DNA of 64,000 bases from Pacificibacter marinus. GTDB taxonomy: Bacteria > Pseudomonadota > Alphaproteobacteria > Rhodobacterales > Rhodobacteraceae. The stretch covers positions 38,279 through 102,278 of the forward strand of contig NZ_JAHKPK010000025.1 in assembly GCF_018860665.1 (NCBI RefSeq), written 5' to 3'. The notes under the pieces were generated by a model. The model worked only from the letters and a program-made list of their open reading frames with translations. It ran no database searches and was not told the origin of the DNA. Shown piece by piece: positions 21,624-50,410 of the stretch. The position numbers and the translations under genes were made by a program. How positions within the stretch are numbered: the stretch's first letter is position 1; every line of letters starts with the position of its first letter.

Positions 21624-22625
21624 TTAGTGCTTTGCGTTGATTGCTTGTGCAGCTGCGATATTGTCTGCGCCGACATCAGCTTCGAACTGCGCCCAAACGG
21701 GTTTCATCACGTCGACCCATTCTTGACGTTGTTCATCTGTCAATTCACGAATGACACCACCGGCATCCAAAACCGCTTGACGGTTTTCGGCATCAACATC
21801 GCCAATGGCTGCGTTACGCTCGGCTGTGACTTCTGACATGATCGTGCTCAATTGATCACGAACGTCAGCGTCGAGGCTTTCCCACCAGTCGACAGAGGTC
21901 ACAACCATGTAGTCCAGCAAACCGTGATTGGTTTCTGTGGTCCCGTCTTGCACTTCAAAGAATTTTTGACCGTAGATGTTGGACCAAGTGTTTTGTTGAC
22001 CATCCACAACGCCAGTTTGCAGCGCGCCGTACACTTCTGAGAATGCCATCGGTTGTGGAGAGGCATCGAGCGCTTCCATTTGCGCAACCAACACATCAGA
22101 CGGCTGAACGCGGAACTTGAGACCCGCTGCATCTGCTGGAACGATCAAAGGCTTATTGGCTGAGATTTGTTTCAAACCATTGTGCCAGAATTCAAGACCC
22201 AAAAGACCACGACGCACCATGGTTTGTTTCATTGCTTGACCTGTTTCCGAGTTTTGGAACTCGTCCACCGCATCCATGTTTTTGAACATGAACGGCAAGT
22301 CAAAGATGCGGTATTCTTTGGTAAATGTCTCGAATTTGGACAAAGACGGCGCCGCCATTTGCACATCGCCTTGCAGCATCGCCTCTAACACTTGATCATC
22401 GTTGTACAATGTTGAGTTCGGGTAAACTTCAACACAGGCTTTGCCGTTCATTTCAGCGTTCACACGATCCATGAACAAATTGGCAGCGATGCCCTTTGGG
22501 TGTTTGTCAGTGTTGGTGACGTGGCTGAATTTGATAACCATTTCGCCTGCATCACAAGCCGCCATTGCGGATGTGGCTGTGACGCTCAATGCGAGTGCAG
22601 TTGCTGCTGTTGCGAGAAATTTCAT
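21624..22625 (-). CDS. dctP: TRAP transporter solute-binding protein DctP
   Basis: A 333-residue periplasmic binding protein with a clear signal peptide (MKFLATAATALALSVTATSA, cleavage after AMA). The start is fixed by GGGAGGA upstream. It resembles DctP of Rhodobacter: IKFSHVTNTDKHPKG, VEVYPNSTLYND, GLKFRVQPSDV with the conserved carboxylate-binding arginine, and MAFSEVYGALQTGVVDGQQN. C4-dicarboxylates are the likely ligands. The first gene of dctPQM, it lies about 210 bp from two operator-like palindromes. Confidence 0.94.
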   Translation of the reverse strand: MKFLATAATALALSVTATSAMAACDAGEMVIKFSHVTNTDKHPKGIAANLFMDRVNAEMNGKACVEVYPNSTLYNDDQVLEAMLQGDVQMAAPSLSKFETFTKEYRIFDLPFMFKNMDAVDEFQNSETGQAMKQTMVRRGLLGLEFWHNGLKQISANKPLIVPADAAGLKFRVQPSDVLVAQMEALDASPQPMAFSEVYGALQTGVVDGQQNTWSNIYGQKFFEVQDGTTETNHGLLDYMVVTSVDWWESLDADVRDQLSTIMSEVTAERNAAIGDVDAENRQAVLDAGGVIRELTDEQRQEWVDVMKPVWAQFEADVGADNIAAAQAINAKH

Positions 22626-22837
22626 GGATGTCCTCCCAGACATAAAGTCAAAATCATTGGCCTGCGTAGGATTGCCCCCTTGAATCAGGGCGCTGCCGGC
22701 TCGATGAATAGATGACAGGTCTGTGATGAGCGCAGCAAGGGGAAGTCTCACATTTATAAAAAATCCCTATAAACTCATAAAAATCAGAACATTAACGTTC
22801 GAACAACACGCATAGCTGCCATGCATCAAGCGTCGCC

Positions 22838-38237: not shown

Positions 38238-38379
38238 GTGCATCTCTCTTTGCAGGGGCTCGCATCTAACTTAGGCATAGCGCCCCCGAAAGAAAGAGAG
38301 ACGCTCCGTAAAATCCAAATTTCTTGTCGTTTTCGCAGGTTTGCGCCTGCAGAGATACGGTTTGCGCAGATACCGCGCC

Positions 38380-46855: not shown

Positions 46856-47758
46856 ATGGACTGGGATAAACTACGGATTTTTCACGCGGTTGCAGATGCA
46901 GGATCACTGACTCACGCGGGTGATACATTGCATCTAAGCCAATCGGCTGTGTCGCGCCAAATTCGTGCGCTCGAAGAATCGCTCAGTACAACGCTGTTTC
47001 ACCGTCACGCCCGAGGCTTGATCTTAACCGAACAAGGCGAATTGTTGTTTGACGCCACCCGTGCCATGGCCAAACGCCTTGATGCGGCCGCCGCGCGCAT
47101 CAAAGACAGCGAAGAAGAAGTCTACGGCGAGCTGCGCGTCACCACAGCCACGGGCTTTGGCACACTTTGGCTAGCCCCCCGCCTGTCGAAACTCTATAAA
47201 AAATACCCAGACCTGACGATCGACCTGATGCTTGAGGAACGGGTACTGGATTTGCCGATGCGCGAGGCTGACGTGGCCATTCGTATGAAAGAGCCATCAC
47301 AGGCAGATTTGATCCGCAAACGCTTGATGAACATCCGCATGCGATTGTTTGCGACACAAAAGTATCTCGACGAACATGGCACGCCCAAGGATTTGGACGA
47401 TTTTGACAACCACCGCCTGATTTCTCAAAACCCGAAATCGGCGCAGGTTGCGGCTGGGGCAAGCCTGTCTCATGAGCTAAGCCTGCATGAAGTGAAATCC
47501 AAACTCTACGTGAACAACTATTTTGGCGTGCTGCAAGCTGTTCTCAACGATCTCGGAATCGGTCTTTTGCCAGATTACCTATTCGACAGCGCGCCAAATC
47601 TTGTGCGCGTTTTGGATACGGTTGAAAGCAATGAAGTGCCCGTATTCTTGGCCTACCCTGAAGAACTGCGTCACTCGAAGCGCATCGAAGTGTTCCGCGA
47701 TTTCATCACCAGTGAAATCAATGAGTACCGCCGCCGCCTTCGCGACACCCCAAGCTGA
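46856..47758 (+). CDS. LysR-family regulator, VtlR/LsrB type
   Basis: A 300-residue LysR regulator. The N-terminus MDWDKLRIFHAVADAGSLTH with the HTH LHLSQSAVSRQIRALEESL is the typical start of VtlR (Brucella, Agrobacterium) and LsrB (Sinorhizobium). The effector domain follows from about residue 90. In Rhizobiales VtlR controls AbcR-type sRNAs and lies next to an abcR gene. Here a candidate sRNA gene follows 175 bp downstream on the same strand. Assignment to the VtlR group is from sequence likeness, not a phylogeny. Confidence 0.85.
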   Translation: MDWDKLRIFHAVADAGSLTHAGDTLHLSQSAVSRQIRALEESLSTTLFHRHARGLILTEQGELLFDATRAMAKRLDAAAARIKDSEEEVYGELRVTTATGFGTLWLAPRLSKLYKKYPDLTIDLMLEERVLDLPMREADVAIRMKEPSQADLIRKRLMNIRMRLFATQKYLDEHGTPKDLDDFDNHRLISQNPKSAQVAAGASLSHELSLHEVKSKLYVNNYFGVLQAVLNDLGIGLLPDYLFDSAPNLVRVLDTVESNEVPVFLAYPEELRHSKRIEVFRDFITSEINEYRRRLRDTPS

Positions 47759-47899
47759 GGGCGTGGCCTGTAGGCCTGCTCGAAGTGAGTGCTATCAATT
47801 TCATCCTATATTCCATTATTTCAGGCCGTTACAAGCAAGCCCCACCCAAGCTATGCGCTGAGCGCATAGCGGACATGCGCAATTTTACCCCATTCCCCC

Positions 47900-47927
47900 T
47901 TGAACGATTCACAAACCGCACATAAAT
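47900..47927 (+). promoter_or_regulatory. Promoter of the candidate sRNA
   Basis: TTGAAC (47900-47905) and ATAAAT (47922-47927) are separated by 16 bp. Transcription would begin near 47934, 54 bp before the terminator stem. No open reading frame follows. Confidence 0.55.
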
Positions 47928-47933
47928 CAACCA

Positions 47934-48015
47934 TCGAAGCTGCTGATAGAGGAAACTCTTAGCAACTTCACCTCCCTGTTGGACTTGGGCCGAGCTAATG
48001 CTCGGCCTTTTTTTT
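47934..48015 (+). ncRNA. Candidate AbcR-like regulatory small RNA
   Basis: About 80 nt between a plausible promoter and a strong terminator, with no coding potential. A 5' hairpin (GCTGATAGAG, GAAA loop, CTCTTAGC) is followed by an unpaired stretch containing CACCTCCCTG, an anti-Shine-Dalgarno-like motif, and then the terminator hairpin GGCCGAGC-TAAT-GCTCGGCC with eight Ts. Hairpin, open CCUCCC segment and terminator is the general architecture of AbcR-type sRNAs, and the upstream neighbour is a VtlR-like gene. The identity is inference. The 492-bp gap 47759-48250 contains no gene otherwise. Confidence 0.55.
47988..48015 (+). terminator. Strong Rho-independent terminator without an upstream ORF
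   Basis: GGCCGAGC and GCTCGGCC form a perfect 8-bp GC-rich stem with a TAAT loop and eight Ts. It lies 230 bp after the VtlR-like stop, too far and too separate to be only that gene's terminator. Confidence 0.88.
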
Positions 48016-48250: not shown

Positions 48251-50410
48251 ATGACCGATCCGAAAATTACCGATGATCTTATTGCCGCGCACGGCCTGAA
48301 TGGCGAAGAATACGCGCGCATCCTCGAGATCATGGGGCGCGAGCCGACCTACACTGAGCTCGGCATTTTCTCGGCCATGTGGAATGAGCATTGCTCATAT
48401 AAATCCTCCAAGAAACATCTGCGCGGCCTGCCCGTTGATGGCCCACAAGTGATTTGCGGCCCCGGTGAAAATGCCGGCATCGTTGATATCGGCGATGGTC
48501 AGTGCGTTGTGTTCAAAATGGAAAGCCACAATCACCCGTCCTACATCGAACCCTACCAAGGCGCGGCCACCGGTGTAGGTGGCATTTTGCGTGATGTCTT
48601 TACCATGGGCGCGCGACCTATTGCGGCAATGAATTCATTGTCCTTTGGCGTCAAAGAGCATCACAAGACCAAACAACTTGTGCACGGCGTTGTTGAGGGC
48701 GTTGGCGGCTATGGCAACTGTTTTGGCGTGCCAACTGTTGGCGGCGAGGTGCGGTTCCACTCGGCCTATAACGGCAACTGCCTTGTGAACGCTTTTGCAG
48801 CGGGCCTCGCAGACACAGACAAAATTTTCTATTCCGCCGCCTCTGGTGTTGGGATGCCTGTGGTTTATCTCGGCGCCAAAACCGGCCGTGATGGCGTTGG
48901 TGGTGCGACGATGGCTTCGGCTGAGTTTGATGACACAATCGAAGACAAACGCCCCACCGTTCAAGTAGGTGACCCCTTCACTGAAAAGCGCCTGATGGAA
49001 GCCACGCTTGAACTTATGGCCACAGGTGCAGTGATTTCGATCCAAGACATGGGGGCCGCTGGCCTCACTTGTTCTGCCGTTGAAATGGGCGACAAAGGTA
49101 AATTGGGCGTGCGTCTTGATCTTGAAAACGTGCCACAGCGCGAATTGAACATGACCGCCTATGAAATGATGCTGTCGGAATCCCAAGAGCGCATGTTGAT
49201 GGTGCTCAAGCCAGAGCTTGAAGCAGAAGCCCGCGCCGTGTTCGAAAAATGGGATCTCGACTTTGCCATCGTTGGTGAAACGCTCGAAGAAGACCGGTTC
49301 TTGATCATGCACAACGGCGAAGTCAAAGGCGACTTGCCGCTGTCCACGCTGGCCTCATCTGCGCCAGAATACGACCGTCCTTGGGTACCAACCCCTGCAG
49401 CGGAACCTATGGATGACGTGCCAAGCATCGATCCGATTGATGGCCTTAAAGCGCTCCTATCCTCGCCAAACTATGCTGCGAAATCTTGGGTCTATGAACA
49501 ATACGACAGTCAAGTTATGGCTGACACGGTCCGCGCACCGGGCATGGGTTCTGGCGTGATCCGCGTTCACGGCACACCTAAGATGCTGGCCTTTACCTCA
49601 GACGTGACGCCGCGCTATGTCAAAGCTAACCCTGTTGAGGGCGGCAAACAAGCCGTGGCCGAAGCCTATCGCAACTTGACGGCAGTCGGCGCGAAACCCT
49701 TGGCGACAACTGACAACCTGAACTTCGGCAACCCAGAAAAGCCCGAAATCATGGGGCAGTTTGTTGGCGCATTGCAGGGCATCGGTGAGGCCGTGAAATT
49801 CCTCGACATGCCAATCGTGTCGGGCAACGTATCTTTGTACAATGAAACCGATGGCGAGGGCATTTTGCCGACACCGACCATCGGCGCTGTTGGACTGATC
49901 GCAAACGAAGACGAATTGATCGCAGGCCTTGCCCAAGACGGTGATGTCGCGGTTGTGATTGGCGCTGTTGGCTCGCATCTTGGTCAATCTGCACTGCTCG
50001 CCGAAGTGTTCAACCGCGAGGATGGCGATGCACCACATGTTGACCTTGCGCTTGAGCAAACCAATGGTGAGTTCCTCAAAGCCAACCGCAAACTGATCAA
50101 CGCTGCGACCGACTTGTCTGACGGCGGACTTGCTTTGGCGGCGTTCGAATTGGCGGATAAAGCGGGCCTTGGCCTGACATTGGACAGCGGCGATACAGCT
50201 GAACTGTTTGGCGAAGACCAAGCGCGCTACCTTGTGTCTTGTACCTTTGATCAAGCCGAAGCGCTGATGGCAGCAGCATCCCAAGCGGGTGTAGAGATTG
50301 TCACAGTTGGTAAGTTTGGCGGCGACACCGTGAAACTTGGCGGCTCACAGGCTTCATTGGCCAGCTTGAGCGCCGTGTTCAACGGTGCCTTTGCCGAGAC
50401 TTTTGCATAA
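48251..50410 (+). CDS. purL: Phosphoribosylformylglycinamidine synthase, PurL subunit
   Basis: A 719-residue small-type PurL that makes FGAM with PurQ and PurS in purine synthesis. The start [11 protein letters not shown] follows GGGGGA. Motifs include [39 protein letters not shown], the ATP-site [18 protein letters not shown], and the C-terminal [16 protein letters not shown] hairpin at 50441-50466 follows the stop. Confidence 0.96.

Follow-up and report, generated by a model that had tools for sequence, protein, structure and literature searches.

What lies in the short gap behind a LysR-type regulator gene of Pacificibacter marinus, and how is it related to the AbcR small RNAs that accompany the regulator LsrB in Rhizobiaceae? 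The element in question, at 47929–48015, belongs to a window of 64,000 nt (the whole stretch of DNA analysed: contig NZ_JAHKPK010000025.1, forward-strand positions 38,279–102,278; coordinates below are those of the window and features lie on its + strand unless stated otherwise). An initial annotation, made from the sequence alone, had proposed an AbcR-like small RNA (sRNA) adjacent to a regulator of the VtlR/LsrB type. The comparisons presented here indicate that 47929–48015 holds a predicted orthologue of the SorY/SorX sRNAs of Rhodobacter sphaeroides. SorY is a named sRNA with an Rfam entry, so Rhodobacterales were already known to possess such an RNA; the novelty lies in connecting the literature on SorY with that on AbcR.

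The SorY-type sRNA was placed at 47934–48015 from its fold and its Rfam matches, its 5′ end being inferred from the published start of R. sphaeroides SorY (1,632,642; PMC6238624). It comprises a 5′ hairpin (47936–47969) whose shape is kept and whose sequence is variable, a presumed anti-Shine-Dalgarno seed, CCTCCCTGTTGGAC (47971–47984), and an intrinsic terminator (47987–48015) made of a 9-bp stem and T8; CACCTCCCTG is read at 47969–47978. The promoter-like pair (TTGAAC at 47900–47905, 16 nt, ATAAAT at 47922–47927) and the terminator (47987–48008, nine pairs, T8 at 48008–48015) described initially are indeed found at these positions, the latter also by a terminator scan. The segment 47929–48013 has a folding energy of −34.2 kcal/mol (z −5.25), and none of 200 shuffled sequences folds equally well. 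The unpaired CCUCCC segment of the initial annotation is only partly retained: the segment is present but is not wholly free in predicted folds, as at least five of its six bases are unpaired in just 8 of the 67 Rhodobacteraceae loci described below, and in most of the remaining folds it closes a 2-bp CC–GG helix. The 5′ hairpin rests on single folds; its length varies, and an automatic alignment of the loci yielded the terminator and the 2-bp helix only.

The sole Rfam match at gathering threshold in the whole window is SorX, at this element (47.2 bits for a cut-off of 46.6, a score reached nowhere else in the genome). In a permissive scan of 601 nt, SorY comes first (72.4 bits, E 1.4e-14), SorX second and suhB/mmgR third (30.3 bits). 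The locus specifies which of the first two it is. In genome G051, the SorY match covers 1,632,645–1,632,727 and the SorX core lies at 2,598,257, behind a gene that reads as OmpR-type from its translation; these coordinates agree with the published SorY start and with the mature SorX 5′ end at 2,598,224 (PMC6238624), and G051 was therefore taken as R. sphaeroides. Its SorY follows a LysR gene 77% identical to that of the window, and purL lies downstream in both. Because it occupies the same place, the window element is a SorY orthologue by position. R. sphaeroides SorY is described as having its own promoter and as unprocessed (PMC8307010, PMC6238624), belongs to a group of RNAs for which RpoE, RpoHI and RpoHII are named (PMC8307010), is stated to depend on Hfq (PMC7866481), acts on takP (PMC6238624) and is reported to play a role in photooxidative stress (PMC6238624, PMC7866481, PMC7074977).

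The AbcR identity first proposed, i.e. a true AbcR (ar15) RNA acquired or retained by Rhodobacterales, was rejected and is extremely improbable: the element does share with AbcR its place behind LsrB, its operator and an anti-Shine-Dalgarno segment, and its sub-threshold suhB/mmgR match belongs to the same Rfam clan as ar15 (CL00108), so that a weak ar15 match could hide behind suhB in the permissive scan, but SorX alone reaches its gathering score in the window, where ar15 does not (cut-off 40), ar15 is clear in 12 of 12 Rhizobiaceae loci scanned as positive control (among 80; best copy 61.5–120.7 bits), the AbcR anti-Shine-Dalgarno pair, CUCCUCCC in a loop and UUCCCCUC between stems (PMC8844928), is not present as such, and model R1, built from other families (see below), does not convincingly find AbcR. 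A search for ar15 in 190 genomes of the class returned no match, controls included, and so shows no absence.

It is also very unlikely that the element is a SorX, that is to say a processed fragment of the 3′ untranslated region (UTR) of the lysR mRNA lacking its own promoter. The SorX cut-off is attained and that of SorY is not, and R. sphaeroides SorX is reported to be cut from the ompR-1 3′ UTR, with RNase E acting at the last step (PMC6238624, PMC9438474). However, the upstream gene encodes a LysR and not an OmpR, whereas in G051 SorX follows OmpR and SorY follows LysR; a pure SorX reading was rejected on this ground. Furthermore, a core promoter and an operator are conserved in the 67 loci, a separate start has been mapped for R. 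sphaeroides SorY (PMC6238624) and two of the three second copies mentioned below follow OmpR as SorX does. A weak SorX-like match elsewhere in the P. marinus genome (L010, C11:98669-98762, 25.1 bits) carries CCTCCCTGTCAGACT and is maybe another anti-Shine-Dalgarno RNA.

The SorY locus is widely conserved in Rhodobacteraceae, with SorY matches in 163 of 198 genomes of the family (E ≤ 1e-6). Seventy loci were examined, namely the 30 best, including that of the window, and 40 chosen from the listed weaker matches. A LysR gene (at least 60% identity, at most 700 nt upstream, same strand) directly precedes SorY in 64 of them, R. sphaeroides included. Among the six exceptions, L185 has a LysR at 56% identity, L035 has its LysR 1.5 kb upstream and L018 has it 174 kb away, and the other three (L174, L175 and L176) are second copies whose genomes each have a LysR-linked one too. 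L175 and L176 lie behind an OmpR-type gene, which is the place of SorX; L174 (G070:C8), a SorY/SorX-like copy, lies behind a terminase-like gene and is perhaps prophage-borne (all three upstream genes were named from translations). Removal of these second copies leaves 67 loci, the window's own included, in which the layout is kept: the 5′ hairpin in 66, the terminator in 67 and an exact CCTCCCTGTTGGAC in 66. Conservation of the layout in relatives had been set beforehand as a test of the element, and it is observed. The downstream neighbour purL (48251–50410; NCBIfam PurL), found at this place in 40 of the 70 loci, is not thought to be part of the unit.

The gene preceding the sRNA (46856–47758; Pfam LysR) was initially assigned to the VtlR/LsrB type, and a structure match, a class-wide search and a tree all agree with this assignment. 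The best solved structure for its product is 9HH1 (250 bits, the next one scoring 106), which is LsrB of Agrobacterium tumefaciens (PMC11975290). A search of the P. marinus genome with this protein gives 24 matches at E ≤ 1e-10, namely itself at 655 bits and, next, a paralogue at 135 bits; in the class, it matches 106 of the 190 genomes at E ≤ 1e-50, 103 of them singly. In a tree of 42 rows, built after another row had been dropped as too short and carrying long-branch warnings, the protein falls on the side of LsrB and of the class-wide set, opposite eight of its own paralogues (support 95/99). The gene trxB, the known operon partner of LsrB, lies directly upstream of the orthologue in 59 of 67 loci from other families and in 79 of 80 Rhizobiaceae loci; together with the tree, this trxB–lsrB order supports LsrB orthology. 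LsrB has been called unique to Rhizobiales (PMC11975290) and, elsewhere, present in many Alphaproteobacteria (PMC7486931). The orthologues found here in many alphaproteobacteria side with the latter statement and go against the former.

The promoter claimed initially has to be reinterpreted. A sigma-70 scan of 3 kb gave two promoter-like sites (2.3 in shuffled sequences), neither at the TTGAAC/ATAAAT pair. From the window sequence alone the pair is therefore at chance level, and it owes its credibility to its conservation in relatives: a stand-alone promoter is retained, and its sigma-70 nature was rejected and replaced by an RpoH reading. A free search recovered the −35/−10 spacing of the window in 62 of the 67 loci; once this spacing is imposed, the −35 box reads CTTG in 64 and the −10 box reads c(c/a)TAaaT, which is the RpoH form. 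In R. sphaeroides, SorY itself is attributed to RpoHI and RpoHII. The putative core promoter, CTTGAA-N16-CATAAAT (47899–47927), is assigned to the RpoH rather than the sigma-70 type, and its spacing is the same as that of CTTGAA-N16-CCTATAT, by which RpoH1 is reported to drive AbcR2 in Sinorhizobium meliloti (PMC8844928).

Upstream of this promoter lies a putative LsrB box, ATGC-N7-GCATAGCGGACATGC (47853–47878; 33.0 bits, the top matrix site of the window), whose 15-bp core (47864–47878) spans about −70 to −56 relative to the presumed start. A box of the form ATGC-N7-GCATAGCGG-N2-ATGC was found upstream of the SorY promoter in all 67 loci, 83–86 nt before the model start in 58 of them, with scores of at least 15.1 bits versus a maximum of 10.8 in 1340 shuffles. 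The matrix was trained and scored on the same 67 loci and the test that counts is the one across families. The untouched matrix exceeds 10.8 bits in 70 of the 80 gaps behind LsrB of Rhizobiaceae and near relatives (shuffles: 3 of 800), in 28 of the 67 corresponding gaps, downstream of the orthologue, from other families (shuffles: 0 of 670) and in none of 147 in-gene controls. The relationship with AbcR loci that was initially suspected is thereby supported at the level of regulator and operator, since this operator is common to the LsrB–AbcR gaps. LsrB is reported to control AbcR1 through GCAT-N3-TG-N3-T at −61 to −49 (PMC8844928), a consensus from which GCATAGCGGACATGC of the window is one letter off. 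Two more box-like sites were seen in the P. marinus genome, L263 (C33:264928) and L264 (C63:112146), the latter at the edge of a frame resembling an EF-P-type gene.

As an LsrB-type box and an RpoH-type promoter occur together, SorY promoters appear to combine both inputs. It is unlikely that RpoH alone drives SorY, the box serving autoregulation of lysR or a different regulator. AbcR2 of S. meliloti provides a precedent, being driven by RpoH1 without LsrB (PMC8844928), and the window LysR lacks the redox cysteines of LsrB. Against this, the box precedes the SorY promoter in every locus, mostly at the fixed distance given above, it stays where lysR has moved away (L018, G034), the same box is found in LsrB–AbcR gaps, and in S. 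meliloti, where RpoH1 drives AbcR2, no additional conserved motif was reported for the promoter of that RNA (PMC8844928).

CCUCCC, the seed, is exactly complementary to GGGAGG. Among 58 crude genes of the window, the sole one with GGGAGG at a possible ribosome binding site is dctP (21624–22625, − strand; Pfam DctP), which encodes the binding protein of a tripartite ATP-independent periplasmic (TRAP) transporter and is a candidate target. GGGAGG is kept in 27 of 30 dctP loci (own included; the top 30 from 81 matching genomes) versus 2 of 64 LysR starts, and in duplex energy dctP comes third among 57, level with the fourth. A second LsrB-box-like site, the palindrome GCATAGCTGCCATGC (22810–22824), lies upstream of dctP; its 26-bp match (17.4 bits) is the second of the window, and it is one of four distinct sites of this pattern in the genome (one control site). 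Genome-wide, GGGAGGA-N3-8-ATG gives 73 sites (two counted twice) versus 6 for the reversed pattern. In a first sample (30 sites from the top of the list, which follows contig order, minus four frames shorter than 60 amino acids and two repeats), 13 of the 24 proteins scanned behind GGGAGGA sites are transport components. As pattern matches, these sites fit the targets known for SorY and SorX, which are transporters (takP, potA; PMC6238624, PMC8307010, PMC9438474). The transporter targets envisaged initially are, on the counts for dctP and for this first sample, plausible.

In other families, a third, highly conserved and unnamed RNA lies behind the LsrB orthologue. It reads ACGTCTCCCAGACGTGAAGCCTCCCTGTT-N2-ACT, followed by a terminator, and a fixed pattern finds its core in 38 of 67 gaps; it was seen at L048, L049, L056, L060, L072 and others. 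A scan of 20 loci gave no Rfam match at cut-off, and SorX is found below its own (E ≤ 0.001) in 8 of the 13 loci scanned permissively, with a best E of 1.6e-7. Model R1, built from 18 third-RNA sequences of other families, matches 87 of the 190 genomes at E ≤ 1e-5, two of which belong to the family of the window. Among its 75 matches of at least 40 bits, 52 follow the regulator on its strand at a distance of at most 700 nt, 18 of these in training genomes; outside training genomes, an adjacent match is found in 34 of 85 regulator-bearing genomes. The remaining matches at this score are elsewhere in regulator-bearing genomes (15) or in genomes without a regulator match (8). Strong copies elsewhere were seen in G302, G210 and G250, and several near the regulator in G364. 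In Rhodobacteraceae, R1 was applied to 57 sources, namely the window and 56 of the other 69 loci. Each yielded a single match (E ≤ 0.1; 20.4–34.3 bits, 22.8 in the window), always at the place of SorY or of a second copy. SorY and the third RNA are therefore related in sequence.

From these data and the published ones, the following scheme can be proposed for the locus. LsrB would bind the ATGC-N7-GCAT-N7-ATGC box at about −60 and would act on a core promoter served by a sigma factor of the RpoH type. The RNA would present CCUCCCUGUUGGAC to mRNAs having GGGAGG as their ribosome binding site and, together with Hfq, would block their translation, mainly that of solute-binding proteins of TRAP and ATP-binding cassette (ABC) transporters; in the window, dctP would be a strong candidate target. 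Substrate influx would thus be lowered under oxidative stress. The unit would be the Rhodobacteraceae form of a regulator–sRNA locus that also gave AbcR in Rhizobiaceae and the unnamed RNA in many families. This scheme draws, by comparison, on orthology, linkage, operator, promoter form and seed conservation and, from papers, on reports of the own promoter, stress sigma factors, Hfq dependence and takP target of R. sphaeroides SorY and of the control of AbcR1 by LsrB. We consider it very likely that the locus is a SorY gene of about 82 nt behind LsrB/VtlR, in which LsrB and RpoH drive an anti-Shine-Dalgarno RNA repressing uptake genes. It is probable, too, that LsrB/VtlR and an adjacent anti-Shine-Dalgarno RNA form an ancestral alphaproteobacterial unit, SorY, AbcR and the third RNA being one locus with one operator, that LsrB and RpoH inputs were joined in Rhodobacteraceae, and that SorX is a SorY copy captured by the ompR 3′ UTR.

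Several observations speak against this interpretation. The window element does not reach the SorY gathering score of 111; this score is reached by only one of the 198 family genomes, namely G051, so that failing it says little. The operator is under threshold in 39 of the 67 gaps from other families and in 10 of the 80 from Rhizobiaceae. Upstream of the window LysR, an opposite-strand acyltransferase gene stands in place of trxB, and trxB was seen upstream in none of the 70 Rhodobacteraceae loci, just 12 of which span at least 700 nt upstream. The window LysR lacks C144 and C273, redox cysteines of LsrB described as conserved in three species of Rhizobiales (PMC11975290). Counting the window's own, 28 distinct orthologues from Rhodobacteraceae lack them, as do 27 from other families. 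Of the four LsrB cysteines, just these two are uniformly absent, a cysteine being present at position 244 in L029 and at position 236 in L072. With these cysteines and the upstream trxB lacking, the input signal has probably changed here, and redox sensing by C144/C273 looks like a later addition, or like a property lost elsewhere. In addition, a search of 31 Rhizobiaceae loci, out of the 80, yields only five weak R1 matches (E ≤ 1). The best of these (15.1 bits, E 0.0075) lies in the gap that follows LsrB at L150, and that of L073, at 9.6 bits, overlaps an ar15 match. Common descent of AbcR and SorY as RNAs therefore rests on place and operator; AbcR is tied to SorY and to the third RNA by place, operator and logic only.

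The remaining objections concern the targets. The box upstream of dctP exceeds the 99th percentile of shuffled sequences in just 6 of the 30 dctP loci, own included. The longer seed complement, ACAGGGAGG-N3-10-ATG, has no site in the P. marinus genome (one control site); in G051 it has 12 (no control site), none resembling takP by translation and two resembling ABC transport genes. In a second sample (464 kb), only three of 11 GGGAGGA genes encode transporters (dctP, a second DctP and a Sulf_transp protein), the remainder being largely respiratory or redox genes, and the control set, in which none of six genes with another GGAGGA site encodes a transporter, is small. GGGAGG may simply be a strong ribosome site. 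It is accordingly conceivable, if rather improbable, that CCUCCC is generic, the transporter enrichment reflecting strong ribosome sites of abundant proteins, and that SorY acts on other mRNAs or otherwise. GGGAGGA does precede cytochrome oxidase, Sox and other genes, and transporters are a minority of the second sample; the singular position of dctP in the window, the majority of transport components in the first sample and the transporter targets already known for SorY and SorX argue against this reading.

Taken as one reading, the presence of SorY beside a relative of LsrB/VtlR, which governs comparable sRNAs in Agrobacterium and rhizobia, suggests one old regulator-and-RNA unit common to much of Alphaproteobacteria. 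SorY/SorX, studied in photosynthetic bacteria, and AbcR with VtlR/LsrB, studied in plant and animal associates, would then appear as forms of one regulator–RNA locus. No literature linking SorY with AbcR, LsrB or LysR, or with the third-RNA string, was found from titles and the start of abstracts, the primary SorY/SorX papers being outside this scope, which is no proof of absence. The link opens specific questions: the control of SorY by LsrB, what LsrB senses without its redox cysteines, and the role of the unnamed RNA.

Compared with known systems, the element is closest to SorY of R. sphaeroides (RF02651), with which it shares its place behind the same LysR, an RpoH-type promoter of its own, a 5′ hairpin, CCUCCCUGUUGGAC and the terminator; it differs in the sequence of the hairpin and by its score, well under the cut-off. 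The papers found on SorY give takP as the R. sphaeroides target and no link to LsrB. With SorX (RF02784), it shares the CCUCCCUGUUGGA core, the terminator and a score above cut-off, but SorX derives by cleavage from the 3′ UTR of ompR-1 and has potA as its target, whereas the window element has a LysR neighbour and a promoter. The mmgR/suhB family (RF00519) resembles it at the RNA level by CCUCCCU...GACUU and a terminator, with a match of 30.3 bits for a cut-off of 41. AbcR1/AbcR2 of Rhizobiaceae (ar15, RF02345) resemble it by their place behind an orthologous regulator, the same operator, the anti-Shine-Dalgarno logic and transporter targets, and AbcR2 also by its RpoH1-driven promoter; they differ in RNA sequence and fold, AbcR having two anti-Shine-Dalgarno motifs and a model of 112 positions. 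S. meliloti splits the LsrB and RpoH1 inputs between two AbcR RNAs, whereas SorY of the window seems to join both on one promoter.
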